This document shows positions 461 through 56,040 of a stretch of DNA of 64,000 nucleotides, piece by piece. Within the stretch, counting starts at the first letter, position 1. Each line of letters opens with the position of its first letter. The translations under genes were made by a program, and so were the position numbers. The stretch covers positions 16,461,001 to 16,525,000 of the forward strand of contig JAVHKY010000004.1 of NCBI GenBank assembly GCA_035079385.1, given 5' to 3'. Origin of the DNA: Aspidiotus rigidus (taxonomy: Eukaryota; Arthropoda; Insecta; Hemiptera; Diaspididae). The notes under the pieces are model-generated. The model had not been told where the DNA came from, ran no database searches, and saw only the letters and a program-made list of their open reading frames with translations.

Positions 461-2466
461 TTAAACGTGGTTGTAAAAGTCAGTAGATCGTAAGTAAGTT
501 AGAGTTGAGTCAATTGTTTCGGAGTTGTTATTGAGAGTTTGTTGTATATTAAAAGATCGGAGAGGCTGTAAAGTCGGGCAAGAGAAAAAGTGTTCAACTG
601 TTAAATTGTCATCGAGACAGTGCGGACATGATGGTGGGCCAAGGTTTGTTAGAAGGTGAGTATGAGTAAGACGAGTGTGTCCCATTCTCAGTCGAGCTAA
701 GATGACTTCCTCTCGTCTAGAATGTCTGTGGGATGAGGACCAAGAAGAGGGATTGGTTTTAATTGTTGTCAGTTAGATTTTTCCAAGAGGAAAGCCAAAG
801 TTGGGAGATTAAGGAAGCGTAATATAGTTTTAGGTCTTTTGCCGGTGAGAGAATAGGGTCCGTTATTTTAGGAAGAGATGTTGCTTGTTTGGCTGCTTTA
901 TCTACTGAGTCGTGAGGTGGAAAGTCAACGTGTCCAGGAATCCAACCCAGAGTGATATGAGAGTTTATTAATTTCGTAGTGTGGAGAGCCAAAAATATAC
1001 GTTGAATTAAGGGGTTAGTTGAGAAAGGATCCGCAATGGCTTGTAGAGACGAGAGGGAGTCAGTCAAAAGAAGGTATTTTTGTTCCGGTAGTAGTTGCGC
1101 AATTAGTGATATACAGGCAAGGATACCGTTTAATTCAGCTGTGTATACCGACGCTGAATTTCGTATGCGGTATGCCTCCATTTCGCCACCAATGGAGAAC
1201 GCGTAAGATGTTCTATGGCGATATTTTGAGCCATCTGTGAGACAAAGGGTATAACCTGCAAATTCGTCGATAAGTTTTGCAATATGTTTTCGATAAATTG
1301 AATTGCTGACTTTAGGGACTTCCGTAAGGTCTAGTCTGATATCAGGAATGGAGAAGAGCCATGGGGGGGTAGCTGTCAGGATAGGTGGAAGGGTTGAAAT
1401 TTTGAGATTACGAGCGAGAGATGTTTCTAAGCAAGTATGGATATGTTTCGTTGGTTGACGATTAAAAATTGGATTAATTTCAGAGATTAAAGATTTGTAA
1501 ACGGGGGAATTTGGAAATTGAGATATCGAAATAAGAAGATTCGAAGAGAGGGTGGATCGGCGAACAGATAGAGGTGGTTCCGCTGCCTCGGCACACAGAC
1601 TAAGGCTAGGGCTCGTTCTGAATGCTCCCAAAACCAGCCTAAGAGATGAGGAATGGATTGTGTCCAAAAGAGCTAAAGACGATTTATTGGCGAGATTGTA
1701 GATAGGGGCTCCATAGTCCAGTTGTGATCGGATTAAACCTTTGTACAGATTTAGGAGTAATTTTCGGTTGCAACCCAGTCGAGGGTGAGAAAGATATTTT
1801 AGGGTATTCATCGAGCGTAAACATTTGGCTTTTAGTAATTTGATGTGTGGAATCCAAGTTAGTTTTTGATCAAGTAAGAGTCCGAGAAATTTAATTGAAT
1901 CAGCGGTTTTAATTGGAAAATTTTGAAGATAAAGTGAGGGAGTTGATGGAGGAGACTTTTTTTTTTTATGGAAAATTATTAGGAATGTTTTGTTTTGGGA
2001 AAATTGGAAGCCGCGGTCAGATGACCAAGAGGAAATATTGTCTAAGGTTTCTTGTAAGAGTCTGTGAGCCCTGATAGGATTTGAAGAGCGGAGCGAGATG
2101 CTGTAATCGTCGGCAAAAAGTCTTTGAGAAATTGGGAAGCTGGTGTTTAATGGAAGGTCGTTAATGGCGACCAAAAGGAGAAGAACGCTCAGTACTTCTC
2201 CTTGCGGAACACCGTTTTCAATTATATAATGAGAGGAGAGCTTATCCTGTAGTCTGACGGAGATGAATCTGTCTTGTAGGAAACTTTGGAGAATTTTTGG
2301 AAGATTTCCTCGTGGACCGAATGTAAATAGTTGTTTACATATGTAATGTCTCCAGACCCGCGGGTACGCTTCTTGAAGATCGAAAAATATTGTATAGAGG
2401 GGGGATTTCGAAAGGAAGGCTTGTTGAATTTGGGTGTGGAGGTCGGTAAGAGCTTGAATTGAGTTA
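461..2466 (-). pseudogene. LINE ORF2 remnant: reverse transcriptase, RNase H, CCHC-type zinc knuckle
   Basis: The reading frame 2582-759 encodes the RT palm and thumb, with an FFDLQEAYPRVW motif A, a GVPQGEVLS motif B and an LFADDYSIS catalytic box. RNase H follows, with LTDGSKY, YTAELNGI, LLTDSLSSLQAI and WIPGHVDFPPHDSVDKAA supplying the acidic residues and the late His/Asp. The first roughly 38 residues of that frame (2582-2467) are flanking DNA. An 11-bp deletion relative to the other copies, near 770, creates a stop just after RNase H. The C-terminal CPHC...HFFSC zinc knuckle continues in another frame (685-461). RT plus RNase H plus a C-terminal CCHC is the arrangement of the I superfamily. 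The copy is truncated and frameshifted, so it should be inactive. Confidence 0.9.
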
Positions 2467-3044
2467 TTGAAACGTTCTTTGGTCGATAAAAATATCATGT
2501 ATTTTTCAGCGAAAATACGATAAAAATGGTAGTTCGGGAAGAACTTGAAAAGTTCAAAAGTGAATTTCTGGAACTGGTTCAAAAATTCTTGAGTAAGTGA
2601 TGTTCGACGATCAATTTATTATTTTGAGTACGTCATTTAAAAAGTTGTAAATTCGTGAGAAAGAATTTTTAATTCTCGATAGTAATAACACGTAGGTAAT
2701 GAATAAGTTAATTCTTTGCGCTTTTCATTTTACAAAATCAATTTCCTCCTCCTTCCTAAACCTTTCATTATTGAAAGGTGACAAAAGGAAAAGGATTATA
2801 TCAATTTCAACTACTTAATATTTTGGGAATGTATCTGAAACAGGAATTATTCACAAACGAATTTGACCTAGTCTTGTAGTCTTGCATGGGAAGTATACCT
2901 ATTTTATCTATCGATACTTCGAACTCAGCCTGTCTCAATTTGTAAACAAGGAAATCCACTTGTTAACTATTGAATACGATTTTTTATATTTTATTCTTTA
3001 TTTTTCTCTCATACCCTGATAACACTGAAAATCAATTTTTGTAG
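2467..3044. other. probable intronic sequence, no gene seen
   Basis: AT-rich DNA between the LINE and the next candidate exon. I see no coding signal or repeat structure. If exons 112-219 and 3192-5251 belong together, this is part of the same intron that holds the LINE. Confidence 0.4.
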
Positions 3045-15015: not shown

Positions 15016-15019
15016 AACC

Positions 15020-17947
15020 TGTAGCGTCACAAATTACAGGTGCCGGGGAAATCTGCCTCGAACACTGGACCAAGCCTAAAGAGGGGGTCTCACCGCAAGA
15101 GGGAGAAAAATCCAGGGATGCCAGAACATTTTTTTTTTTTTAGTATGAGTCTAGAAATGCTCAAAACTAGGCCATAAGAAGTCAATTTAACAAATAAAAG
15201 GGAGAAAGCTTCAATCCAGTCCTCGAGAGAAAATACAGAAGTCCCGGATAATAAAATGTGATCGTACAATATTTGCGCTTTCGGGGAAGGACGATGCGCG
15301 CGGTTAAAATCCAACCCCTAACTGAATTTAAATAGGGCATATTCAGCAGACCTAAATAAAGAAAAATGAAATTAGACATAAAAATATACGAGAAGAGGGA
15401 TTTATTCCGAGATTACGAATAATGCACATTAATGCATCTTCAAAATTTATGTCAGTGGGCGTGAATTAATCACATGAAACCCAGAGAGTAAAAAAAAAAA
15501 AATTAGGAGGAATCCGAATAGGTCGGAAAAATAAGCGTGCAGGTGACACGTAAATAATATAAAAAAAATAAGATAATAAGAAGAAAAGTAATAACACAAA
15601 ATAATAAAAAAAATAACATAAATGGGGAATAATCCGCGAATGGCCAAATTCACCCTAGAAATCCAGGAAACTCACTTCAAGCAATTTTGTAGGCCCAGAT
15701 ATGAATCTCGGGGGAATGTAACCCCTAGTAACTTGTCCCGACATGGGGGAAACGGGAGGCAGGGAATCGAGCCTTCTTCCTCATACGTAATAAGGCGAAC
15801 TTGCACTCGATTAACTCTGGTTAACGAAAGTAACTAAGTAAAAAAAAATAATCAACATCAACTCGGGCGTAGCCCGGAAGGGTAGTGCCTAATAGTGGCT
15901 AATCGCAACTTCCAATAAACAAAAAAGGGCATTAAGTACAGCCTCGAGTGAAAGTAAAAAGTGGGTAGGGGATCAAACTCTCGTTCAGATAAGGTAAATT
16001 AAAACAAAGTAGAATAATATGAGTCATAGCAATCAGTAAGACAATGAACGAGAGATGGCCTAAAACCCGGATAAAAAATAAAAAAAAATCGCGCCAGAGC
16101 ATTCCAAAAAAAAAACAAAATTCGTAGTTCGAAGTGACGCAGGGAGAGGAGGCTCGATCTCCGTTCCCAAATTCAAAATAAACAATTTGGATTTTCGAAA
16201 TGGGGGGATGAGAATACATCAAATAGAATACGTACATACCGTACAACAGCTCCGAGGACGAAATGTGCACAAGTCGACGATCCGGAACTGAAAAAGAAAA
16301 GATTAAATCCTCTACAAACTCAGGAGAGGGTGCCTAGGGAATTCCTTGAATTTTTAGGAGTGAGATTCTAGAGAATTGAAAAAGTGTGGAAATACATAAA
16401 ATTAGACGTACTAAAAACGTTAAAAAAAAAAAAAATAAAAATAAGGAGAAATTAGACATAAAAAAAAAATATTCGATTGGACGAAACGATGAAAAATGTA
16501 CGGCGGCGTCGGCATGATGATGGTGATTGATTTGTGGCGGATGTTGAAAGGCTCGGTCCACTTGGTGGTCGAGGACCGGCCAGATTTACGAAATGGACGG
16601 ATTCACGGCATTGGCAATCGAAAGGGTGGGATGGTCCCACCAGAATGGCCTTTAGCCTGCCATGGATAGGTGATTTAGCACAGTCGAAAACATTTAAACG
16701 TGGTTAGTTCAAAAACTGAATACCCGAGATCAGCCAGCAAATTTTCACGGTAACGAGATAATTAGTATCGATCGCTATATTAACACGCACAATTCTTCAA
16801 CACGTGCGGAAAAAAGATAGGTCCGTTCGGGACTCAGAAAAATCGCACTTGACCCCAAACGAGATCATACTCCCAATTTACAGGAGGGAAAAGAAATTTC
16901 AATAAAAATTCAATGTTCGAATTTACGAGTTTCGGGCAGACGAGTATCAAATACGTAGATTCATTCGATTACGGTGACACAACCGGACAGAAGAAGAGCA
17001 CGGCGACTCGACCAGATTGACGAAAAAGCCAAAACAAGACTCTCTAACGAGAAGGATTACGCTCGACCAGCTCGCGGTACATCGCGATCCACTAGTCCCC
17101 AGAAACAGGGGTTGAAGCCAATCGTACGGACCAGTGGTCACGTGGACGACAAACCCAGCTTGTTGATAGGTGTAAGATAGAGACATCGAATCCGCCCTCT
17201 AACGCGTCGTTTGATGATGTCAGAGGAAGATGGAAGCCCAAAGGGTAACAGTCGATCGAAGAAGAAAACAGAGACAAGTAAAAGAGAGAGAGAGAATGAG
17301 AGAAATACGGAAAAATATTGAGAGGCCGATGAAAGACGCGACAGAGTACGAAAGGAACGAAAGGAAAAAAAAAATTGTATTGTCGGAGATCCGGACGCGA
17401 GGACGAATTCGAACAAAAAAGACATTAACGCAGTCAACATACCTGAACAGCGAACCTCAACCACGACCCAAGCGTCGGCGGCGTGATCCGCAAAGAACAA
17501 TTTATTCGGGAAATGAATTGAGGATGAGAGATAGCTGACTTTGTTACAAGGAATTTATTGAGGTCTGCATTCGGTTTATTATTAGTGTATTTAAAGAAAT
17601 ATTATAAAGAGCGGAAAGAGCGAGAAAAACAACTAAAATGAAGTTTCGACGGACTGCAGGATTATATTGCGAGGACGCTATTAATATACATGCAGCTGCA
17701 CGAGGTCGAAAGACAGGAACTGAATGAAATAGAGAAGAAAAAAAAAAAAAAAAATTAGAAAATTGGGACGGGAACGGAATGAAAAGAGTAGAGTGAAGCC
17801 TAGGTTCGCGTCCAATCTCGAATATGCCGACGAATGTCGACGAATTCGAAAAATATCTACGTCGAGCTGGTCTTGAACACATATCCTTTTACGGGGACAA
17901 AACAAAAACGGCTCGATCAAATCGAATATCGAATTTGTGACGCTACA
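15020..17947 (-). repeat. 3' LTR (2,928 bp)
   Basis: Near-identical partner of 25796-28724. An LTR of 2.9 kb is long for Ty3/gypsy, where a few hundred to about 1,500 bp is usual. The + strand is strongly purine-rich, which produces many chance open frames (for example an Arg/Lys-rich one at 17230-17538). Because both LTRs carry the same frames, their conservation is no evidence for coding. Confidence 0.95.
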
Positions 17948-18743: not shown

Positions 18744-21700
18744 TTACTCTTCGCTTTTTCGATCGATCCGCCTCATCAAGAGAAGCTGCCGAACATTGGC
18801 GATAATTTCAGGACCTGAGCCATCGAGGTTTCTGAGGAGATAAGCATTCGACCCGATAGGTTTGATGACCAGATATTCTCCATCATATTTTTTATAAAAC
18901 TTTTTTGTTAACCCAAAGTACGCTTGCGAGATCCCGTGGTTCTTTAATGCGACGACATCACCGGTTTTATAAGACGTGAAGTTCTTACTAGAGATAGCGG
19001 CCCGATGAGACAATCGCAGGAAATCGATTTTTTTAGACAAAGCCACGTAAGCGATAAGAACTTCGCGTCGCGTAAGTGAGGCGGTATTTATCCCTGACCA
19101 TTCTGAATATTCTCGAATACAGGTATGGGCCATGTAATCCGCCTCCAGATTCCCGAAGTCGATCGTATGTCCATAGACATGTTTCAAGAGAACATGGTCA
19201 TGGTCAAATAGATTGATGGCATGTTTGAGTAGGGACAGCCATTCGTAATTTTCGTATTGGCCAAATCGGGGGTTCTCATCGCGGAGTAGTCCTTCATTGA
19301 CTAAATCAACTACGTACGCGGAATCGGTGTGTACTATTATTTTCGAGACTTTGTGGGCATGAGCAATTTCGAGTGCCCGTATCACTGCAAAAATCTCGGC
19401 TTGATTGTTGGTAAGCGTAGGTCTCACGACAGTCGCACAATTCGCTCCGTGATCCTGAGCAACCCATACTGCGATCGCTGAAATCGTATTACCAGTCTGA
19501 GGAGTTGATACAGAGCCGTCGCAGAAGATATGAGCCCGACCATTCTCGTCGAAAAAGAATTTCAAGCGAGATGCCTTCACTGTCGATTTTATTTCGTAAT
19601 TCGTCACATCTTCTTCTAGCAAAGTGATTCGTTGTTTGATGAGCGTGAAAGGGTTCTTGGCATGCAAGGGGATGTTGGCGATCGGAAGGGGGTTGATCTC
19701 GTCGATTCCCAATATTTGGTTAGGGGAATAGCCGTGACTCTTAGGCAGAGAATTCAGAGCCTGCTGAATATCCTTCAATTCTCGATGCCATTTCGAGTGA
19801 TCATTCACATGGCGATTAGAAGAATTAATTCGTAGACGAAGTTTCTCTCCTAGATCGCGCATAACTCTCTCCACTGGATTAGCTGAAGGGTTATACTTAG
19901 CGGTAAATTTCGGCTTGATATTCAACCCATGGAGGTATTCAACCCATTTATTCGACCTGAATTGTTTCGCGTTGTCGCTAAGGACTGCCTTCACTACAAT
20001 TGCGAGCCCATCGTAATCATGGAGGACACGCCCAAGTGCGCGGATGAAAGAGTCGGCAGTCATGGACCTGATAGGCTGGAAAGAAACGTATCCAGACAAT
20101 CGATCCATGGCCACAAACACCGCTATTATACCTCCACGTTTCAAGGGTAGGGGTCCAAATATATCGACCGATAAGATTTCTCCAGGATGTGATGCTTCGA
20201 TACGATCCTTTATCGGGACAATCGATTTATTTGTAGACTTACAATGCTTGCACTGGACACATTTTCCCACCACTTGTCCGACGTGTCTTTTGAGGTCCCT
20301 CGCGTAGAATTGTCGCTTGATCAGGTCGGTGGTTTTCTCGATACCTGGGTGAACATAGAATTCGTGGAAGAACGAGATGAGATCAGGTAGTGCGTGAGAC
20401 GGCACGACCAGCAGACAAGTATCGTCCTCCATCTTACGAAATAGTTTTCTGTCCACGATACAGAACTGCGAATTGTCACCTTTTTCGCACTGTTCCATGG
20501 CCTTCTTACAAAAGATATCCGACTTTTGGTGAACGCTGATACTGTCAAACAGGTGGATGAGTAGCTCTGATGGCTCATCTCCCAAGGTCAACGCGATAGC
20601 GCGAAAACTATCACAGTCAGAGCAATCGTTAACGGGGTGGGTTTCATCAACCGGGATAGAGTCCGGCTCTACACTCTCCCAGAAACAAAGAGAGGGTTCA
20701 AACTCTGTTTGTTTAGCGATAGCGTCGAACTCCTCAACCGTTTTCATTACCCGGTCGAACAGTTTATCATCGCTAGTCCGAGGGAGGATGTTGAATGAGT
20801 TTATGAAGACGTACCATTTAGCACAAAGAGCGTTAACCGGAACATACTCCTTGGCTCGCTGAAGGATAGCTGACGAACTTTTGTTGAGAATAATGGGATA
20901 GCCTAGCAACAGATTCCTGTACCGTTTTAGTACCGAATATATGGCAAACATCACTTTTATATCAGTGGGTTTCTCGATAACATTGGGCCCGAGCCGTGAA
21001 CTCAAAAGAGTAATAACGTTCAGATGATCTTCAACTTCTGACCGTTGGGCAATACACCCTGTGAATGACGCATCGTGCGCCTCAATAAATAGTTCGAAGG
21101 GCAGTTTGTATGAAGGCTGAGTGAGCTTGAAATCTTTGAAAAACTCTTCCTTCAGATGATGATAGGCTTTTTCGTGCGAGGGCCCCGTCTTTATAGGGGG
21201 AGGACACGAAAGCAATTCAACGATTGGTCCAACGATCTCGGAATAATTCGGGATAAAGCGGGAATACCAGTTCATGAACCCGATTAATTGCTGGACAGAT
21301 CGCTTAGTGGGAAGAGCAAATTGATTTCCTTTAAAATATCGTTCTTCGAATTTTCTAAAGAAGGTACCCTTATCAAGGTTTTTCCCAATGAGACCATCCG
21401 AGACGATATGTCTTATATACTTTATGCGTTTTTGAAATAGCTCAGTTTTCTCAAGCGAAAGAGTCATTCCGGATTCATAGATATTCTTAATCGCCTGAAC
21501 TAGATGGCGAAGGTGCGTGGCGAAGTCATCGGTTTGAATTTTAACGTTATCCACGTATGCCTTAACGAAATGTGGATCAACGTCGCGAAAGATAACCTTA
21601 CGGACTATGCGATTAAACACCGACCCGCTGACCTTAGTTCCGAAAGGGAGACGCTTATAGACGTAGGTAGTGTGATCTATTTGGACACCGAGAAAATGAC

Positions 21701-23519
21701 TAGAAGCGGGGTCGAGCGCGATCTGATTATAACCAAGATCGAAGTCAAACACGGAGAAAATATGCCCGGTGCTTTCGTCGAACAAAATATCTTCTATCCG
21801 TGGCGGATCGTGATGTTCCTCCCACGCGACTTGGTTGAACGCTGCGGCGTCAAGACCGATTCGTATCCCACCATTTTTCTTCGGCGAAATAACTATTGGG
21901 TGTATATACGGGGTAGTGGATTCCTCCAATATGCCCCGGGCAACCATTTCTTTTACCATTTTGCGGACTTCACCCTGGTATACGTGGGGATAACTATATT
22001 TCTTCGGTTTCCATTGCTCTGTGAGCTTTATATTTAATTTTATATCCTCGGCCTGGTATCGGCCTAATTCCTTGCGAAAAACAAGAATATAAGGGGCGAT
22101 TGAATCAAAAGCTCTTGCTGCTTCATCGGAGGAGATAACATTCGCAAGCACTGATCGGCTTAATTTATCTTTCAGCGAATTTAATAAGGATGACTGCTCA
22201 TTAGTGCAGTCTATCTGAGTCGCGAAATACGAGAAATCCCTAAATTCCTGATCGCTATTTTTTGGACATAGTTCCGGGCACTCGTCCAAAGACGTGAGAA
22301 ACATTTTTATATGGACCCGGTGGGCAGTTCTAGCGAGTGGGATGACCGAAGTTTTCCCTTCCGCCCGAATAGACATTTCGGATTTATCGTAGTCGATAAC
22401 GGCCTTGTATGTTAGAAGAAAATTGCCCCCAAGAATTATGGATTCGGACAAATCTGGTATAATAAGCGCTACAATAAAAACCCGCAAACCACCAAGATTA
22501 ACACGGACCATCGCAATTTTATCTAAGGAGTAGGTTTCCCCCTTTGCTAACAAAACTCGAACTTTTCTACCTAACTTCCTGAACGAGATGCTATTGGGGT
22601 GCTCCCTAGCCATGAATTGGGACCATTCCTCAGAAACTCCACACGCAGTTGCCCCTGAGTCTACTAGAGAATCCTCGTTTGGGCCATCACTGACGTTAAC
22701 CGTGACTCGAAATAACATACCTTCGATCTCGGAATCAATATCTAAGGGTTTCCCGGGAGTCGAAGAGTTGGCGGAGCGTGAAAGGATCTTCACCTGATTG
22801 GTGTTCACTACGAGTTTCTCAGACGAGTCAGTAATCGCTGACCTATCGATATTTATAACGTGTTGGGTCTTAAGACGATTGGTAAGGTTACTGAGGGAAT
22901 CGATACAATCCGAAATGGCAGTCTTTTTGAAGCGAGTGACCGACGAAGTGGCCATGGTGAAGACGTTACCGTTTGCGAGAACATTGCACCGCTCGGGCAG
23001 ATCGTTACTGTCCCGGCTCACAATTTCGTCATTTTCACCAAGTTTTTTGAAAAATATGTTATCAAGATTCGTTACGCTGACGAAATCTCCGAACTTTTCG
23101 AGAGACGTACTGTAACAACTACGAATGTCCTCGTACGAAGCCCATTTATCTAACTTATCAAGGGTAGGATGAGGAGGAGGTACGACGAGAACTACGTGCT
23201 TGACTCCGTTATTTTGGAGATGACGGAGGATTTTGAAGAATGTGTCCTGGAATACAGCGGGGTGGAATTTATGGAAGACCGTTTGATCACTAAACCCGGC
23301 CGTAAGCATCACGTAAGGGTGAAATTGAGTCAACGAGGTGACACTGTTGAGCAGATAATCGATAGTGATGTATTCGTATACGGAAAAATATTTCTTCCCC
23401 CTTTTCATCGCTTGCTCAGGCTTAATGACGTTAAAAAAGGATAGGATGTCGTAGAATAATGTATCGCCAATCATTTGATAAATTTTAAACAAACGGAATT
23501 GATTTAACGAGCTATTCAC
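18744..23519 (-). CDS. pol: Pol polyprotein: SGNH-like domain, protease, RT, RNase H, integrase, second RNase H
   Basis: The 1,591-residue frame opens with GTG, not ATG, and is open upstream to the gag stop, so it is probably made as Gag-Pol. Domains by residue: 12-200 SGNH-hydrolase-like (MIGDT at 16-20, LTAGFSD, LVVPPP); 265-385 aspartic protease (DSGA 287-290, ILGGN 362-366); 500-720 RT (FDFDLGY 591-597, LPFGTK, YVDN 655-658 in place of YVDD); 805-925 gypsy RNase H with D816 kept but other acidic positions apparently lost; 1052-1093 HHCC zinc finger; integrase core D1119, D1182, E1217 (34 residues between the last two); 1325-1475 a second RNase H with D1334, E1375, D1399, H1451, D1461; 1515-1582 GPY/F-like integrase tail (KYDGEYLVIKPIGSNAYLL). 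It would act in cDNA synthesis and integration. The N658 substitution may weaken this copy's RT. Confidence 0.93.
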   Translation of the reverse strand: MNSSLNQFRLFKIYQMIGDTLFYDILSFFNVIKPEQAMKRGKKYFSVYEYITIDYLLNSVTSLTQFHPYVMLTAGFSDQTVFHKFHPAVFQDTFFKILRHLQNNGVKHVVLVVPPPHPTLDKLDKWASYEDIRSCYSTSLEKFGDFVSVTNLDNIFFKKLGENDEIVSRDSNDLPERCNVLANGNVFTMATSSVTRFKKTAISDCIDSLSNLTNRLKTQHVINIDRSAITDSSEKLVVNTNQVKILSRSANSSTPGKPLDIDSEIEGMLFRVTVNVSDGPNEDSLVDSGATACGVSEEWSQFMAREHPNSISFRKLGRKVRVLLAKGETYSLDKIAMVRVNLGGLRVFIVALIIPDLSESIILGGNFLLTYKAVIDYDKSEMSIRAEGKTSVIPLARTAHRVHIKMFLTSLDECPELCPKNSDQEFRDFSYFATQIDCTNEQSSLLNSLKDKLSRSVLANVISSDEAARAFDSIAPYILVFRKELGRYQAEDIKLNIKLTEQWKPKKYSYPHVYQGEVRKMVKEMVARGILEESTTPYIHPIVISPKKNGGIRIGLDAAAFNQVAWEEHHDPPRIEDILFDESTGHIFSVFDFDLGYNQIALDPASSHFLGVQIDHTTYVYKRLPFGTKVSGSVFNRIVRKVIFRDVDPHFVKAYVDNVKIQTDDFATHLRHLVQAIKNIYESGMTLSLEKTELFQKRIKYIRHIVSDGLIGKNLDKGTFFRKFEERYFKGNQFALPTKRSVQQLIGFMNWYSRFIPNYSEIVGPIVELLSCPPPIKTGPSHEKAYHHLKEEFFKDFKLTQPSYKLPFELFIEAHDASFTGCIAQRSEVEDHLNVITLLSSRLGPNVIEKPTDIKVMFAIYSVLKRYRNLLLGYPIILNKSSSAILQRAKEYVPVNALCAKWYVFINSFNILPRTSDDKLFDRVMKTVEEFDAIAKQTEFEPSLCFWESVEPDSIPVDETHPVNDCSDCDSFRAIALTLGDEPSELLIHLFDSISVHQKSDIFCKKAMEQCEKGDNSQFCIVDRKLFRKMEDDTCLLVVPSHALPDLISFFHEFYVHPGIEKTTDLIKRQFYARDLKRHVGQVVGKCVQCKHCKSTNKSIVPIKDRIEASHPGEILSVDIFGPLPLKRGGIIAVFVAMDRLSGYVSFQPIRSMTADSFIRALGRVLHDYDGLAIVVKAVLSDNAKQFRSNKWVEYLHGLNIKPKFTAKYNPSANPVERVMRDLGEKLRLRINSSNRHVNDHSKWHRELKDIQQALNSLPKSHGYSPNQILGIDEINPLPIANIPLHAKNPFTLIKQRITLLEEDVTNYEIKSTVKASRLKFFFDENGRAHIFCDGSVSTPQTGNTISAIAVWVAQDHGANCATVVRPTLTNNQAEIFAVIRALEIAHAHKVSKIIVHTDSAYVVDLVNEGLLRDENPRFGQYENYEWLSLLKHAINLFDHDHVLLKHVYGHTIDFGNLEADYMAHTCIREYSEWSGINTASLTRREVLIAYVALSKKIDFLRLSHRAAISSKNFTSYKTGDVVALKNHGISQAYFGLTKKFYKKYDGEYLVIKPIGSNAYLLRNLDGSGPEIIANVRQLLLMRRIDRKSEE
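19095..19547 (-). other. extra RNase H domain inside Pol, between integrase core and GPY/F tail
   Basis: Residues 1325-1475 of Pol show the full RNase HI pattern: FCDGS (D1334), TNNQAEIFAVIRAL (E1375), VHTDSAYVVDLV (D1399), VYGHTIDFGNLEADYMA (H1451, D1461). The TNNQAE and GHT...N.EAD forms resemble stand-alone cellular enzymes more than the gypsy domain at 805-925. Secondary RNase H domains are known in plant Tat-type elements, and retroviruses are thought to have replaced theirs. A site between integrase core and C-terminal module is unusual to my knowledge. Confidence 0.85.
22920..23486 (-). other. SGNH-hydrolase-like N-terminal segment of Pol
   Basis: Residues 12-200 of Pol precede the protease, where gypsy elements usually have only a linker. 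The order is hydrophobic-GDT (16-20), GKKYFSVYEYI (41-51), YVMLTAGFSD (69-78) and VKHVVLVVPPP (106-116). This matches GDSL block I, the second loop, the GxND block and the following beta strand of SGNH folds. The catalytic Ser is Thr, the block-III Asn is Ser, and I see no clear D-x-x-H. If the fold is right it is probably non-catalytic. Confidence 0.45.
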
Positions 23520-23547
23520 TTTCGGAATTGTAACCGTTTCCGTATCG

Positions 23548-23584
23548 TTTCCACCCCCTTCCGTTCTTTGGGAGGGGGTGGAAA
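23548..23584 (-). promoter_or_regulatory. hairpin for -1 frameshifting between gag and pol
   Basis: TTTCCACCCCCT pairs perfectly with AGGGGGTGGAAA (12 bp, 13-nt loop) on the coding strand. The stem starts directly after the gag TAA. It lies 3 nt past the candidate slippery heptamer at 23588-23594, or 5-8 nt if the A:T base of the stem is open. Confidence 0.75.
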
Positions 23585-25201
23585 TTAGTTTTCCGACCTG
23601 GAAGACGAGTTTCCTAAGGGCGTAACTACATGGGATTGAGCTCTTGCTCCTTGGTTCTGAGTGGCGGTATTAGTTCCTCGAGTATTGTTATCATTAATGT
23701 TATTCGGGTTTCTATTATTATTATTATTACCATTATTAGCGTTATTATTACGCTGATTACCAGAGGTATTCGAACCGCTTACATTTCTGTTACGGGAACG
23801 ATTGTTTCGGTTTGCCTGCCCGTTTCCACTATTTGCGCCATTAACTTCCTGAGCGTCGACGTGACTACGGGAGTCAGCTATGTCGTATCTAGCGAGTCCA
23901 GGTGCAGCAGCGCGGCGTCTGGCGGCGTTAAATTGATTGTCGAAATCACTTTTCCGAATTATCTTGGCTACCTTACGCCGAAATTCGCCGTAGTCCTTGT
24001 AGTCGAGCACATTTAGGGTGTCCCTTTTTGCGAAAGGCAATTTATCAATCAACAAGTTGATGATCTCCGAATGACCAAGTCGGAGAAGGGTAAGGGTGGC
24101 TAATCGTGTATGCCACCGATCGAGTTGATTCAAGAACTCGGATGTATCAGGGTAGGTGAGTCGGCTTTCTTTAAATGATTTTAGCTCAATCTCCTGCATC
24201 TCCCGATTCCAAAACACCTCAAGAAATTTCTTTTGATATTTTTCGAATGGGCTGCCTGAGCTTAACCCCTGGTCCCAACTATCATCTTCAACCTGTATGA
24301 GACATTGAAATAATTGAATCTTCAACTCGTCATCGAGACCTCTCGTCGCCTGATTAAAAATGCGGACAAACTTATTAGGGGAAATCGACTTGCTGTCCGT
24401 GTAAGGGGGACACGCCTTCAAAATAGCGTCTATGTCGAAGCATTTTTTACGGGTCGACGTACTATCATTAGACGCTGAGTGAGACGGATCCGTATTGGAG
24501 AAAGTGCTCATGATAGGTGGTAATCCCATGGGGTGATAGACTGCCCCTGGCGCTATCGATTGAGTATCCTGAGGGGTCATGACGGTGGTCGGTGGTGTCT
24601 CATGGCTAGGTACTGAGCTAAACGACGTGGGGTTTGAAACAGGCAGCGGTATGAGAGGCATCGCGGTCGTTGAAATCGGCACGGGAATCTGATCCCAAGA
24701 TTTAAAAGAAGGAGTCGCATTACTAGTGACCGGAAGCTGAGTGGGCGCGGAATGAGAAATATTAGTCACCGGTGGGTAGCAAGCTGAAGCCGTTACTGGG
24801 ATTTCGTGCGGCCGACCACCCAACTCTAACATAGGCTGAGCAAGCTGCCGCCTAGGATCCTGGTATATGGGCGCAGAGCTTGGAGTAGAATTCGGAGCTT
24901 GTGGTGCTCTTTCAGTGCGTAACTGATTAATTTGCCCTTGAAATAGCGCTCCTTGCGCGTCTAACTGTTCCTTCATCTGCGAGAACATTCTTTCCTGCAT
25001 GGCAGTCATCTGTTCAAAGAAACCTCTTAAAAGATTGGGAGTCAGAGACGATTCTTCATTCAATGTAGACTCTTGCCCATCAGCTTGAGAGACGGGTATA
25101 CCGTCGTGCGATACATCCTCTGTTCCCCCTGAATGTTCAGCAATAATGTTCGGGTCAATGGGGTCGCCAAGCTTGGCCGTTTGCTTTCTGGTTAACACCA
25201 T
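23585..25201 (-). CDS. gag: Gag polyprotein of the LTR element
   Basis: This 538-residue frame starts at ATG (MVLTRKQTAK). Residues 55-98 form a Gln/Met-rich helical, probably coiled-coil segment; 100-250 are Pro/Ser/Thr-rich and likely disordered; 255-430 form an all-helical capsid-like block with the typical retrotransposon-gag feel (FEKYQKKFLEVFWNREMQEIELKSF, then LNQLDRWHTRLATL and INLLIDKLPFAKRDTL). The tail 450-538 is Asn/Arg/Gly-rich. No CCHC zinc knuckle is present, so the Arg/Asn tail probably replaces it in nucleic-acid binding, as in some other gag proteins; this is inferred. The frame ends in TAA directly before the frameshift hairpin, and pol follows in the -1 frame. It would package the element RNA in cytoplasmic particles. 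Confidence 0.9.
   Translation of the reverse strand: MVLTRKQTAKLGDPIDPNIIAEHSGGTEDVSHDGIPVSQADGQESTLNEESSLTPNLLRGFFEQMTAMQERMFSQMKEQLDAQGALFQGQINQLRTERAPQAPNSTPSSAPIYQDPRRQLAQPMLELGGRPHEIPVTASACYPPVTNISHSAPTQLPVTSNATPSFKSWDQIPVPISTTAMPLIPLPVSNPTSFSSVPSHETPPTTVMTPQDTQSIAPGAVYHPMGLPPIMSTFSNTDPSHSASNDSTSTRKKCFDIDAILKACPPYTDSKSISPNKFVRIFNQATRGLDDELKIQLFQCLIQVEDDSWDQGLSSGSPFEKYQKKFLEVFWNREMQEIELKSFKESRLTYPDTSEFLNQLDRWHTRLATLTLLRLGHSEIINLLIDKLPFAKRDTLNVLDYKDYGEFRRKVAKIIRKSDFDNQFNAARRRAAAPGLARYDIADSRSHVDAQEVNGANSGNGQANRNNRSRNRNVSGSNTSGNQRNNNANNGNNNNNRNPNNINDNNTRGTNTATQNQGARAQSHVVTPLGNSSSRSEN
23588..23594 (-). promoter_or_regulatory. candidate -1 slippery site GGAAAAC
   Basis: The last gag codons GAA AAC TAA contain G-GAA-AAC. 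Pol lies exactly in the -1 frame and is open from here down to GTG 23519, with no stop in between. A site followed by TAA and a strong hairpin fits programmed -1 frameshifting. The heptamer is not a perfect X-XXY-YYZ (GGA instead of GGG or AAA), so slip efficiency is uncertain. Confidence 0.65.
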
Positions 25202-25795: not shown

Positions 25796-28724
25796 TGTAG
25801 CGTCACAAATTACAGGTGCCGGGGAAATCTGCCTCGAACACTGGACCAAGCCTAAAGAGGGGGTCTCACCGCAAGAGGGAGAAAAATCCAGGGATGCCAG
25901 AACATTTTTTTTTTTTTAGTATGAGTCTAGAAATGCTCAAAACTAGGCCATAAGAAGTCAATTTAACAAATAAAAGGGAGAAAGCTTCAATCCAGTCCTC
26001 GAGAGAAAATACAGAAGTCCCGGATAATAAAATGTGATCGTACAATATTTGCGCTTTCGGGGAAGGACGATGCGCGCGGTTAAAATCCAACCCCTAACTG
26101 AATTTAAATAGGGCATATTCAGCAGACCTAAATAAAGAAAAATGAAATTAGACATAAAAATATACGAGAAGAGGGATTTATTCCGAGATTACGAATAATG
26201 CACATTAATGCATCTTCAAAATTTATGTCAGTGGGCGTGAATTAATCACATGAAACCCAGAGAGTAAAAAAAAAAAATATTAGGAGGAATCCGAATAGGT
26301 CGGAAAAATAAGCGTGCAGGTGACACGTAAATAATATAAAAAAAATAAGATAATAAGAAGAAAAGTAATAACACAAAATAATAAAAAAAATAACATAAAT
26401 GGGGAATAATCCGCGAATGGCCAAATTCACCCTAGAAATCCAGGAAACTCACTTCAAGCAATTTTGTAGGCCCAGATATGAATCTCGGGGGAATGTAACC
26501 CCTAGTAACTTGTCCCGACATGGGGGAAACGGGAGGCAGGGAATCGAGCCTTCTTCCTCATACGTAATAAGGCGAACTTGCACTCGATTAACTCTGGTTA
26601 ACGAAAGTAACTAAGTAAAAAAAAATAATCAACATCAACTCGGGCGTAGCCCGGAAGGGTAGTGCCTAATAGTGGCTAATCGCAACTTCCAATAAACAAA
26701 AAAGGGCATTAAGTACAGCCTCGAGTGAAAGTAAAAAGTGGGTAGGGGATCAAACTCTCGTTCAGATAAGGTAAATTAAAACAAAGTAGAATAATATGAG
26801 TCATAGCAATCAGTAAGACAATGAACGAGAGATGGCCTAAAACCCGGATAAAAAATAAAAAAAAATCGCGCCAGAGCATTCCAAAAAAAAAACAAAATTC
26901 GTAGTTCGAAGTGACGCAGGGAGAGGAGGCTCGATCTCCGTTCCCAAATTCAAAATAAACAATTTGGATTTTCGAAATGGGGGGATGAGAATACATCAAA
27001 TAGAATACGTACATACCGTACAACAGCTCCGAGGACGAAATGTGCACAAGTCGACGATCCGGAACTGAAAAAGAAAAGATTAAATCCTCTACAAACTCAG
27101 GAGAGGGTGCCTAGGGAATTCCTTGAATTTTTAGGAGTGAGATTCTAGAGAATTGAAAAAGTGTGGAAATACATAAAATTAGACGTACTAAAAACGTTAA
27201 AAAAAAAAAAAATAAAAATAAGGAGAAATTAGACATAAAAAAAAAATATTCGATTGGACGAAACGATGAAAAATGTACGGCGGCGTCGGCATGATGATGG
27301 TGATTGATTTGTGGCGGATGTTGAAAGGCTCGGTCCACTTGGTGGTCGAGGACCGGCCAGATTTACGAAATGGACGGATTCACGGCATTGGCAATCGAAA
27401 GGGTGGGATGGTCCCACCAGAATGGCCTTTAGCCTGCCATGGATAGGTGATTTAGCACAGTCGAAAACATTTAAACGTGGTTAGTTCAAAAACTGAATAC
27501 CCGAGATCAGCCAGCAAATTTTCACGGTAACGAGATAATTAGTATCGATCGCTATATTAACACGCACAATTCTTCAACACGTGCGGAAAAAAGATAGGTC
27601 CGTTCGGGACTCAGAAAAATCGCACTTGACCCCAAACGAGATCATACTCCCAATTTACAGGAGGGAAAAGAAATTTCAATAAAAATTCAATGTTCGAATT
27701 TACGAGTTTCGGGCAGACGAGTATCAAATACGTAGATTCATTCGATTACGGTGACACAACCGGACAGAAGAAGAGCACGGCGACTCGACCAGATTGACGA
27801 AAAAGCCAAAACAAGACTCTCTAACGAGAAGGATTACGCTCGACCAGCTCGCGGTACATCGCGATCCACTAGTCCCCAGAAACAGGGGTTGAAGCCAATC
27901 GTACGGACCAGTGGTCACGTGGACGACAAACCCAGCTTGTTGATAGGTGTAAGATAGAGACATCGAATCCGCCCTCTAACGCGTCGTTTGATGATGTCAG
28001 AGGAAGATGGAAGCCCAAAGGGTAACAGTCGATCGAAGAAGAAAACAGAGACAAGTAAAAGAGAGAGAGAGAATGAGAGAAATACGGAAAAATATTGAGA
28101 GGCCGATGAAAGACGCGACAGAGTACGAAAGGAACGAAAGGAAAAAAAAAATTGTATTGTCGGAGATCCGGACGCGAGGACGAATTCGAACAAAAAAGAC
28201 ATTAACGCAGTCAACATACCTGAACAGCGAACCTCAACCACGACCCAAGCGTCGGCGGCGTGATCCGCAAAGAACAATTTATTCGGGAAATGAATTGAGG
28301 ATGAGAGATAGCTGACTTTGTTACAAGGAATTTATTGAGGTCTGCATTCGGTTTATTATTAGTGTATTTAAAGAAATATTATAAAGAGCGGAAAGAGCGA
28401 GAAAAACAACTAAAATGAAGTTTCGACGGACTGCAGGATTATATTGCGAGGACGCTATTAATATACATGCAGCTGCACGAGGTCGAAAGACAGGAACTGA
28501 ATGAAATAGAGAAGAAAAAAAAAAAAAAAAATTAGAAAATTGGGACGGGAACGGAATGAAAAGAGTAGAGTGAAGCCTAGGTTCGCGTCCAATCTCGAAT
28601 ATGCCGACGAATGTCGACGAATTCGAAAAATATCTACGTCGAGCTGGTCTTGAACACATATCCTTTTACGGGGACAAAACAAAAACGGCTCGATCAAATC
28701 GAATATCGATTTTGTGACGCTACA
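25796..28724 (-). repeat. 5' LTR (2,929 bp)
   Basis: Matches 15020-17947 over its whole length with very few differences. Transcription would start within it and run leftward. I do not see an unambiguous TATA box and initiator pair that I would place to the base. Confidence 0.95.
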
Positions 28725-28728
28725 AACC

Positions 28729-46375: not shown

Positions 46376-48877
46376 CTCATCGAACTCAAATTATTCCGCC
46401 TCATTCCTTCGAAAAAAATATGAATCAGAATCCTCCCTGATAAATTTCGATTCCTCCGACAACACCCACTGTTACAATCAACCAATCACTCAAATCGAAC
46501 TCACCTGAACCCTACACAAAAATCTCAGAAATGCATCCCCAGGACCGGACAACATACATGCCACAATGTTCAAAAATCTTCACCCTACCGCTCTTGAATA
46601 TCTTCTTTCTCTTTTCAATTCGATTTTATCAGAAGGTATCTACCCTACAGACTAGAAATTGGCGTTCATTCTACCTATTCTGAAACCTGGGAAAGATCCG
46701 TCTTCCCCCTCTTCATATCGGCCCATTGCCCTCACCAGTGTGTTGGGCAAACTTTTTCAAAAAATAATTAACAAAAGACTTTGGTGGTTCCTCGAACAAA
46801 ACAATCTACTATCCCCTGTACAATATGGCTTCAGAAAAGATCGTAACTCAATTCAAGCTCTTGCCGACCTCCACACTCAAATTCAACAAGCCTTCCTTTC
46901 GAACTCCCCTCTCTATACAATATTCTTCGATCTTCAAGAAGCGTACCCGCGGGTCTGGAGACATTACATATGTAAAAAACTATTTACATTCGGTCTACGA
47001 GGAAATCTCGTAAAAATTCTCCAAAATTTCCTACAAGACAGATTCATCTCCGTCAGACTACAGGATAAGCTCTCCTCTCAATATATAATTGAAAACGGTG
47101 TTCCGCAAGGAGAAGTACTGAGCGTTCTTCTCTTTTTGGTCGCCATTAACGACCTTCCATTAAACACCAGCTTCCCAATTTCTCAAAGACTTTTTGCCGA
47201 CGATTACAACATCTCGCTCCGCTTTTCAAATCCTATCAGGGCTCACAGACTCTTACAAGAATCCTTGGACAATATTTCCTCTTGGTCATCTGACCGCGGC
47301 TTCCAATTTTCCCAAAATAAAACATTCCTAATTATCTTTTTAATAAAAAAAAGAAATCTCCTCCATCAACTCCCTCACTTTATCTTCAAAATTTTCCAAT
47401 TGAAACCACTGATTCAATAAAATTTCTAGGACTCTTACTTGATCAAAAACTAACTTGGATTCCACACATCAAATTACTAAAAGCCAAATGTCTACGCACG
47501 ATGAATGCCCTAAAATATCTTTCTCACCCTCGAATGGGTTGCAACCGAAAATTGCTCCTAAATCTGTACAAAAGTTTAATCCGATCACAACTGGACTATG
47601 GAGCCCCTATCTACAATCTCGCCAATAAATCGTCTTTAGCTCTTTTGGACACAATCCATTCCTCATCTCTTAGGCTGGTTTTGGGAGCATTCAGAACGAG
47701 CCCTAGTCTTAGTCTGTGTGCCGAGGCAGCGGAACCACCTCTATCTGTTCGCCGATCCACCCTCTCTTCGAATCTTCTTATTTCGATATCTCAATTTCCA
47801 AATTCTCCCGTTTACAAATCTTTAGTCCCTGAAATTAATCCAATTTTTAATCGTCAACCAACGAAACATATCCATACTTGCTTAGAAACTTCTCTCGCTC
47901 GTAATTTCAAAATTTCAACCCTTCCGCCTATCCTGACAGCTACCCCCCATGGCTCTTCTCCATTCCTGATATCAGACTAGACCTTACGGAAGTTCCTAAA
48001 GTCAGCAATTCAATTTATCGGAAACATATATAGCAAAACTTATCGACGAATTTGCAGGTTATACCCTTTGTCTCACAGATGGCTCCAAATATCGCCATAG
48101 AACATCTTACGCGTTCTCCATTGGTGGCGAAATGGAGGCATATCGCATACGAAATTCAGCGTCGGTATACACAGCTGAAATAAACGGTGTCCTTGCCTGT
48201 GTATCACAAATTGCGCAACTACTACCGGAACAAAAATACCTTCTTTTGACTGACTCCCTCTCGTCTCTACAAGCCATTGCTGATCCTTTCTCAACTAACC
48301 CCTTAATTCAACGTATATTTTTGGCTCTCCACACTACGAAATTAATAAACTCTCATATCACTCTGGCTTGGATTCCTGGACACGTTGACTTTCCACCTCA
48401 CGACTTAGTAGATAAAGCAGCCGAACAAGCAACATCTCTTCCTAAAATAACGACCCTATTTTCTCACCGGCAAAAGACCTAAAAGTATATTACGCTTCCT
48501 TAATTTCCCAACTTTGGCTTTCCTCTTGGAAAAATTTAACTGACAACAAATTGAGAAAAATTAAAACTAATCCCTCTTCTTGGTCCTCGTCCCCTAGACA
48601 TTCTAGACGAGAGGAATTCATCTTAGCTCGACTGAGAATAGGACACACTCGTCTTACTCATACTCACCTTCTAGCAAACTTTGGCCCACCATCATGTCCG
48701 CACTGTCTCGAAGACAATTTAACAGTTGAACACTTTTTCTCTTGCCCGACTTTACAACCTCTCCGATCTGCCCTCAACATTTCTATTAATATACAACAAA
48801 CTCTCAATAACAACTCCGAAACAATTGACTCAACTCTAGCTTACTTACGATCTACTGACTTTTCCAACCACGTTTAA
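46376..48877 (+). pseudogene. LINE ORF2 remnant: near-complete RT, RNase H, zinc knuckle
   Basis: RT motifs in order are NASPGPDNIHATMFKN, ILPILKPGKDPSSPSSYRPIAL, QYGFRKDRNSIQALADLH, FFDLQEAYPRVW, GVPQGEVLSVLLFLVAINDL and LFADDYNISLRF. RNase H (TDGSKY, YTAEINGV, LLTDSLSSL, WIPGHVDFPPHDLVDKAA) and the CPHC...HFFSC knuckle follow, ending in TAA near 48875. Lesions are TGA near 46506, TAG near 46652, an indel near 47340, loss of one C near 47947, an extra TA near 48030 and a lost G near 48452. The protein is therefore split over five frames. It is the best template in this window for recognising the family. Confidence 0.92.
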
Positions 48878-54683: not shown

Positions 54684-56040
54684 ATTTTTTGGCCTCCTTA
54701 ATACGTGCTGGTCCCCTAACTTCTGTAAGTTCAATGGGAAATTTTACGAGTTTCCTGAGGAGGTAGGAATCCCCATCGGCTCTCCTTTGGGCTCCCTCGT
54801 TTCGGAGATATTTATGTCCAGATTTGAGGTTGACTTGTTTTCCTCTGGCCAAGTGCTACTCAGTCACATTCACTACTGGCACCGATATGTGGACGATATA
54901 TTATGTGCGTGGACCGGTCCTCAAGAGCTCCTTGGTGAGTTTCTTCAGTATCTGAATAAAATGTATCCCTCCATAAAATTTACTACAGAAATTGGAGGTT
55001 CTTCCATAAACTTTCTGGATCTTACTATCTCTGATAGAGATGGGGACATGAATTTGCGATATTCAGGAAGGATACTTCGACCGCTACAGTTGTCCACGGA
55101 TCGTCCTTCTGTCCATTTTCTCATAAGATCGCTGCCTTCAATAGTTATATTCATCGACTGACTAACATTCCGCTAAGTCAACCAGCTTTCCAAAAGGAGC
55201 TGGCGACCATTAAGCACTTGGCCGCTGTGAATGAGGTCAACTTGGACATTGACCGTATGGTCCGTAAAAAACTTACGAGGAAGGGCCTTGATTCTACCAC
55301 TTCCCTCCCCCGCGATCTGAGTGGTAATAATAATAAGAGATTACGTTGGATCAGGCTCCCGTTTTTGGGCGAGTTTTCATCCAAGCTGACTCGTGTCCTC
55401 CGCCCCTTTGGCTTCAGGCCTGCTTTTTATAACCTCACTACTGTGAAGGGTTTGTTTGTTAGGCTAAAGGACCCCATCCCGCGGGGGGAGAGGAACGGGG
55501 TGTACAAATTGGAGTGCAAGGACTGTAACGGCGTATACATAGGCGAGACGGGTCGCCAGCTTGGAATTCGAGTAGAGGAGCACCTTAGGGCCTGGAAGAA
55601 AGGTAATTTGGGTGATTCGGCCTTTGCGGACCACCTTATCTCCAGTGGTCATAGTTTCAAGGAAGGTTCGGCTACCCTTCTCCACAAGGAGAATTCTTAC
55701 TTCAAGCGCGTTGCGTTGGAAAATATCGAAATAGTGCGTCATCTGAACAGTGACGATATTACCGTACTCAACAGGTATTTTCTCGACGAAGGTTTAGTTG
55801 AATTGGTCTACGAGTTTGAGTCACCTCGCGAGGGCTCGCTCGTTCAATCCTGATCTCGTTGGTATTCTGTTTTATGAGTCGTATCTGGGTCAGTGGCGTT
55901 CTAACTTTGCCCGATGATGGTTTGTTAACCGAAAGATCTCGCATCTTCTCCTTTATATCTGCGGTCTTTGTAATTGGTTCTTCGTTTACTCTACTCTTTG
56001 AGTATTCTGTCATTACCCTATACCTTGGTCAAGCTCCAAT
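54684..56040 (+). mobile_element. 5'-truncated Penelope-like element inside a LINE
   Basis: The insertion breaks the LINE between its RNase H and zinc-knuckle codons; both junctions are set by comparison with LINE copies 2 and 3, to within about 10 bases. It contains the end of a Penelope RT and a complete-looking GIY-YIG domain followed by about 190 bp of 3' sequence. No clear target duplication seen. Confidence 0.88.
54735..55853 (+). pseudogene. Penelope-like RT and GIY-YIG endonuclease, one frameshift
   Basis: The RT part starts mid-palm with FCKFNGKFYEF and GIPIGSPLGSLVSEIFMSRFE, then HYWHRYVDDILCAW with the catalytic YVDD at 54886-54897 and INFLDLTI. A frameshift near 55115 moves the frame (SHKIAAFNSYIHRLTNIPLS) into the 211-codon frame 55218-55853. 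That frame carries WIRLPFLGEFSSKLTRVLRPFGFRPAFYN, then GIY-YIG as GVYKLECKDC (from 55497), VYIGETGRQLGIRVEEHL, DSAFADHLISSGH and a helical tail. A GIY-YIG endonuclease attached to RT is the mark of Penelope elements. Only one lesion plus 5' truncation are evident, so the insertion is younger than the host LINE's decay. Confidence 0.9.

Follow-up and report, generated by a model that had tools for sequence, protein, structure and literature searches.

The gain of a new RNase H together with the decay of the old one is held to be a key step on the way from retrotransposon to retrovirus, and it is known from retroviruses and Odin, from plants and from oomycetes (PMC10508981). According to the same source, the new retroviral RNase H is of the fungal/metazoan type, and in plant Tat elements the catalytic core of the native RNase H (RH) is degenerate, no matter where the new domain sits (PMC10508981). 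The additional RNase H (aRH) of Tat is of archaeal type, aRNH having an arginine at the active site (PMC5348765). In the TatIII elements of gymnosperms the additional domain is placed 'after INT', that is, after the integrase (INT), its relation to the INT C-terminal domain not being specified in the accessible text of that paper (Neumann 2019, PMC6317226), and a survey of 92 plant species by Biryukov and Ustyantsev (2023) presents five Tat structures in its text, none with an RNase H after INT. This report concerns a 13.7-kb long terminal repeat (LTR) retrotransposon of the Ty3/gypsy group, found on the minus strand of a 64,000-nucleotide stretch of DNA from Aspidiotus rigidus (contig JAVHKY010000004.1), the whole of which is here termed the window; the LTRs and coding features of the element given below all lie on that strand. 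In the lineage to which this element belongs, RNase H function has quite probably moved from the reverse transcriptase (RT) into the integrase (IN), with the native site lost and a new site in use.

An RNase HI domain within the integrase

The pol open frame of the element (18744..23669) runs for 1641 residues from stop to stop. An earlier note on this DNA, made from the letters alone, had placed a complete RNase HI domain between the integrase core and the C-terminal domain of a Ty3/gypsy Pol, and Pfam bears this out directly: RNase_H matches Pol residues 1330-1466 with an expect value (E) of 2.4e-16 (19095..19547). On one side lie the H2C2 zinc-binding domain (Pol 1039-1095; 20235..20405) and the rve catalytic core (Pol 1110-1211; 19887..20192), both matched by Pfam, the D-D-E triad of the core being kept in nine of nine Pols; on the other lie the integrase linker helix and SH3-like C-terminal domain (18771..19070), with a weak SH3_Tf2-1 match at Pol 1520-1562 and GEY in place of GPY/GPF. 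The five catalytic residues named earlier (D1334, E1375, D1399, H1451 and D1461) were exact. In sequence and in the structure model, the inserted domain has the D-E-D-H-D site and the fold of a type 1 RNase H, and that site is intact in all nine related Pols, the window's included. Matches to TAL-effectors, in which some 33 residues were aligned to tandem repeats and no single stretch would have passed by itself, were set aside as chance.

The arrangement is shared by relatives in the protein databases. Word-based searches, which may miss further relatives, returned five Pols when queried with the RNase H region and nine when queried with the integrase region; PF00075 is present in each of the seven Pols whose integrase is closest (45-67 % identity) and absent from the following two (29-31 %). 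In total, eight database relatives have an RNase H behind rve, including one of the scale insect Parthenolecanium corni; querying with the inserted domain alone brought in four more short proteins, one of which belongs to the lac insect Kerria lacca. Since these two scale insects are the only named organisms among the domain-bearing relatives, the earlier view of a likely arthropod element holds, and a genome of 441 Mb agrees with it. Profile scans of viral and genome contig collections with the integrase-RNase H alignment gave no relative. In one distant family member (P0008), residues 1621-1673 form a terminal DM14 domain of the CC2D1A/B type (E 5.9e-7), apparently fused after the integrase C-terminal domain.

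Within its own genome (441 Mb in 102 contigs), the family, here called class A, is well represented. There are 80 genomic matches to the inserted domain, of which 29, including that in the window, span at least 149 of its 151 residues without a stop; these near-complete matches fall in several subfamilies, one having 14 equal-scoring copies. Twenty further copies were read, comprising 19 of the 29 and one fragment, and the inserted site is complete in each of the 19 whose open frame covers it. That the arrangement might be an artefact of assembly or annotation, or a one-off chimera, is scarcely conceivable given the identical domain order in eight database proteins of several sources and in many genomic copies, and a frame that stays open through both junctions.

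Loss of the native site and a putative replacement

The native gypsy RNase H follows the RT domain (RVT_1, Pol 562-702; 21414..21836; found by Pfam and by structure search) and is recognized by Pfam at Pol 780-877 as RT_RNaseH_2 / RT_RNaseH (20796..21182). Its catalytic residues are gone. Across the nine Pols, the first aspartate (D1) is kept in none, the window having Glu there; the glutamate and the third aspartate (D3) are likewise kept in none, and the second (D2) in one, P0006, where it is possibly an effect of the alignment. D1 and E are also lost in all 20 genomic copies that were read. The full D-E-D-D site is kept in five of five ordinary gypsy controls, three from this genome and two outgroups. 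The native domain is, moreover, more variable across the Pols than the inserted one. The earlier note had spoken of a 'second' RNase H, which is apt for its position but not for an extra enzyme: because the native domain has lost active-site residues across the family, the inserted domain looks like a replacement. Judged from these residues, the element probably has no other active RNase H.

Comparison with solved structures points to what the native domain may have become. With the window's native RNase H region as query, four retroviral RT chains (best E 2e-4) and one chance entry (0.78) were matched, and Ty3 was absent; the same region of the outgroup P0011 found Ty3 at 1e-19, and retroviral chains at 0.04-0.05 only. 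From its place in the chain, we read the retroviral part that was matched as the tether (connection), and the native RNase H probably survives as a structural tether of RT. The element has a catalytically degenerate native RNase H, as retroviruses do, but its new RNase H lies downstream of the rve core, and not directly after the tether and upstream of IN.

One course of events would account for this arrangement. A cellular-type RNase HI would have been captured downstream of the integrase core, where it now forms a module in the loop between the catalytic core and the C-terminal domain; the native RNase H would then have lost its active site and persisted as the RT tether, as in retroviruses and plant Tat. 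From within integrase, the captured enzyme would supply the removal of template RNA and primer, most simply by acting before RT and IN part, whether linked or held in a complex within the particle. RT-integrase fusion forms exist in Ty3 and in avian retroviruses, so action in such a complex appears reachable. With integrase holding the LTR ends, this position would in addition bring RNase H to the site at which primer remnants need clearing before integration. The earlier suggestion that the enzyme might stay tethered to integrase after proteolysis is plausible.

Several points weigh against such a transfer of function. Strict loss of the native site holds just for D1 and E: at D1 the window subfamily has Glu, one alignment puts an Asp of this subfamily in the D3 column, and D2 is Asp in P0006. 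From the third catalytic residue of the inserted domain to its histidine, a stretch that includes the usual basic protrusion, acidic residues outnumber basic ones in nine of ten sequences (the tenth is partial), and the stretch seems, by eye, shorter than in Escherichia coli; for these reasons, substrate binding may need help. The window copy has a substituted RT catalytic motif and is therefore probably not autonomous; the motif is kept in all 20 of the other genomic copies read. The task might in principle fall to a host RNase H, and a protease cut between the integrase core, the RNase H and the C-terminal domain, which is possible, would separate them. In its fullest form, the last point becomes an account in which the protease frees the RNase H to act as a small protein of its own, and its position inside integrase reflects only how the capture happened. 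The domain is compact, and the structure model has a low-confidence joint on the integrase-core side (predicted local distance difference test, pLDDT, <50 at model residues 175-187). However, such release would also cut the class A integrase between its core and its C-terminal domain, and the linker helix and C-terminal domain remain recognizable downstream, making this account decidedly unlikely.

Origin of the domain and a second gypsy lineage

A hidden Markov model (HMM) of the inserted domain scored 45-65 bits against cellular and phage RNase HI and at most 5 bits against the native RNase H of the elements listed, the hmmsearch listing having native RNase H rows for nine of the 11 elements (P0007 and P0009 are not among them). 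A tree also separates inserted from native RNase H, with support of 100/96 and a long-branch warning. Both domains belong to the RNase H superfamily, and one might thus suppose that the element duplicated its own RNase H rather than captured a cellular gene; against these scores and this split, that is very improbable. By sequence, the inserted domain resembles cellular RNase HI/H1 and did not arise by copying the native RNase H. It has, in all nine Pols, the histidine of the H1/HI type, and not the arginine by which PMC5348765 defines the archaeal-type aRNH. Of 50,697 phage records, 63 contain a match to the inserted domain with E no higher than 0.01, the top-ranked one having 35 % identity; this is what a domain of the ordinary RNase HI type would be expected to give.

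The weaker genomic matches to the domain (26-36 % identity) prove to be a separate gypsy lineage, here called class B. In the five Pols scanned with Pfam (L033-L037), RNase_H lies downstream of rve, at the C-terminus of Pol or close to it. A C-terminal domain of the class A type was matched in all of the ten class B loci but L039, with E from 3e-10 to 0.0015, and it comes before the RNase H in all nine loci having both, those of L041 being in neighbouring frames. The class B RNase H has an intact D-E-D-H-D site in ten of ten loci; its native counterpart keeps E and has lost D1, D2 and D3 in eight of eight. The class A integrase HMM gave class B 129-142 bits where the core is complete, versus 36-67 bits for controls, some of which are cut short; the class A RT HMM gave 113-132 bits versus 122-138 bits for ordinary gypsy controls, hence no separation. 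The N-terminal Pol domain of class A (see below) is recognizable in one class B locus, L034 (hmmsearch E 1.3e-5; hhalign E 2.4e-6), with none or a weak match in the other four hhalign comparisons. Among the controls, L054, P0010 and P0011 have complete Pol frames and no later RNase H; L045 and L048 run beyond the sequence analysed and may have one further on. L042 and L043, which are RNase H fragments only, stand outside all class B tables; L038 and L039, with no usable RT part, are left out of the RT tree and the native-RNase-H table, L044 of the RT tree, and L039 and L044 of the integrase tree. P0012-P0014 are left out of the native-residue table and of the RT, integrase and RNase H trees comparing the two classes, and P0015 (its first part missing) of all trees. 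Only three of the 20 control loci enter the tables and trees; the other 17 include many copies with equal scores. Three class B loci (L034, L036 and L037, e.g. L037 5187-6860) have an extra open reading frame (ORF) of 557 to at least 792 residues after the Pol that ends in RNase H; it has no Pfam match, and is a possible env-like or accessory gene.

On the RT, integrase and RNase H trees, classes A and B each form one group. In a first RNase H tree of 29 rows, class A did not group apart from the cellular and phage sequences (it did so in 14 % of bootstrap trees); a later tree united it at 99/99. Class B is nearest to human RNase H1 among six references (71 bits; fork 85/80), and for class A no nearest reference was singled out. 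The integrase tree has both classes on one side of a branch, which favours one capture with support of only 79/53. Against one capture, or neutral, are the RT HMM scores given above, no better for class B than for ordinary gypsy controls, and the approximately unbiased (AU) test, in which a single clade of the two is not rejected on RT (p-AU 0.45) or on RNase H (p-AU 0.241). These results are compatible with one capture or with two.

Class B also bears on what the inserted RNase H is for. The inserted enzyme might serve mainly integration, trimming primer RNA (tRNA, polypurine tract) at the LTR ends while host RNase H removes the bulk of the template; its place inside integrase and adjoining the C-terminal domain would suit that service, as would a protrusion region richer in acidic than in basic residues. 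Yet class B, whose RNase H follows the integrase C-terminal domain, has also lost most of the native site, so that the loss is independent of place within integrase, and in Tat the native RH is lost wherever the new one sits (PMC10508981). A role chiefly in integration is, on balance, rather unlikely, and a transfer of RNase H function remains the preferred reading. A broader proposition, on which opinion could fall evenly either way, is that in an arthropod Ty3/gypsy clade the integrase itself is the RNase H and holds the sole competent site, that reverse transcription would consequently depend on an RT-integrase complex, that clean-up of cDNA ends would be coupled to integration and that, class B included, the replacement arose downstream of the integrase core and not within RT.

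The whole element and its place among known systems

The element is flanked by a 5' LTR of 2929 nt (25796..28724), with TG..CA ends and inverted terminal repeats of 12 nt or more, and a 3' LTR of 2928 nt (15020..17947). The two are 99.9 % identical (one substitution, one gap) and are bordered by copies of the target site duplication AACC at 15016..15019 and 28725..28728. At 2.93 kb, these LTRs are very long for an animal gypsy element. No tRNA could be matched to the primer-binding site. The gag ORF (538 residues; 23585..25201) has neither a Pfam match at cut-off nor a CCHC knuckle; pol lies in the -1 frame relative to it, and in the 85-nt overlap (23585-23669) there is no slippery heptamer (X XXY YYZ). 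Between the pol stop at 18744 and the LTR at 17947 no frame of at least 100 residues lies wholly within the interval, and thus no env gene was found. The aspartic protease (Pol 283-368; 22416..22703) has the motif D-[S/T]-G-A and weak Pfam matches below cut-off. Paired TG..CA LTRs, the AACC duplication and a Pol ordered as protease, RT, RH and IN, with the extra RNase H inside IN, place the element in Ty3/gypsy. Against solved structures, the window RT found Ty3 best (E 1.4e-20), followed by 8r0s (9e-17), 7o0h (1e-8) and 1nnd (2e-3), which we take to be cauliflower mosaic virus, foamy virus and murine leukaemia virus, respectively; with RT nearest Ty3, a retroviral origin of the element is rejected. 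Elsewhere in the window are three other retroelement-like frames, at 759-2582 (minus strand), 46659-47420 (plus) and 55218-55853 (plus), two having RVT_1 and one a weak GIY-YIG below cut-off.

The N-terminal Pol domain (22866..23498) has a predicted SGNH-hydrolase fold, nearest to the OSK domain of Oskar. Its catalytic Ser and Asn are absent, the GDS position being GDT, GDL or GTG in six of six sequences, and GxxDQ standing where SGNH hydrolases have GxND. Vesta LTR elements of bdelloid rotifers likewise carry an SGNH/GDSL-type domain but as a separate GDSL ORF3 with catalytic residues intact (PMC5408684), unlike the serine-less domain here.

Among open-licence papers, mostly judged from listings, none was found to describe an RNase H within integrase, nor one located downstream of it in an element of animals; Troyka (PMC12440569) and Odin were considered as the same arrangement and rejected on their descriptions, as far as the excerpts go. 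The earlier note had called the place of the domain unusual, which stands for an animal element; an RNase H after integrase had already been reported for plant TatIII (PMC6317226). What appears to be new is its position inside integrase, its occurrence in an animal element and its cellular H1-type active site. RNase H replacement would now extend to elements that are likely of arthropods, the enzyme being of cellular HI/H1 type and placed so that integrase carries the activity. This offers a natural test of whether RNase H needs to adjoin RT and of what selects for its replacement, and the presence of class A, class B and ordinary gypsy elements in one genome permits side-by-side comparison.

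Ordinary gypsy elements, such as the woot-like P0010 of Lasius niger and P0011, share with the window element the order of Pol domains and a homologous RT and integrase, but have an intact native RNase H and no downstream one. Plant Tat and TatIII share with it the Ty3/gypsy affiliation, an additional RNase H and a degenerate native RH; theirs, however, is an archaeal-type aRH with Arg, whereas that of this animal element has His. Chronos and Archon of oomycetes also have an independent second RNase H and a decayed native one, although theirs is an archaeal-type aRNH adjoining the native RH (PMC5348765). Retroviruses, lokiretroviruses and Odin resemble the window element in having a new RNase H and a native RH decayed to a tether, but in them, according to PMC9040795, the new domain sits after the tether and upstream of IN, whereas here it is inside integrase, in an element with an RT nearest Ty3 and no env. 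If the transfer proposed here is correct, this is an animal lineage in which RNase H replacement, a hallmark of retroviral origin, arose downstream of the integrase core and not in RT.
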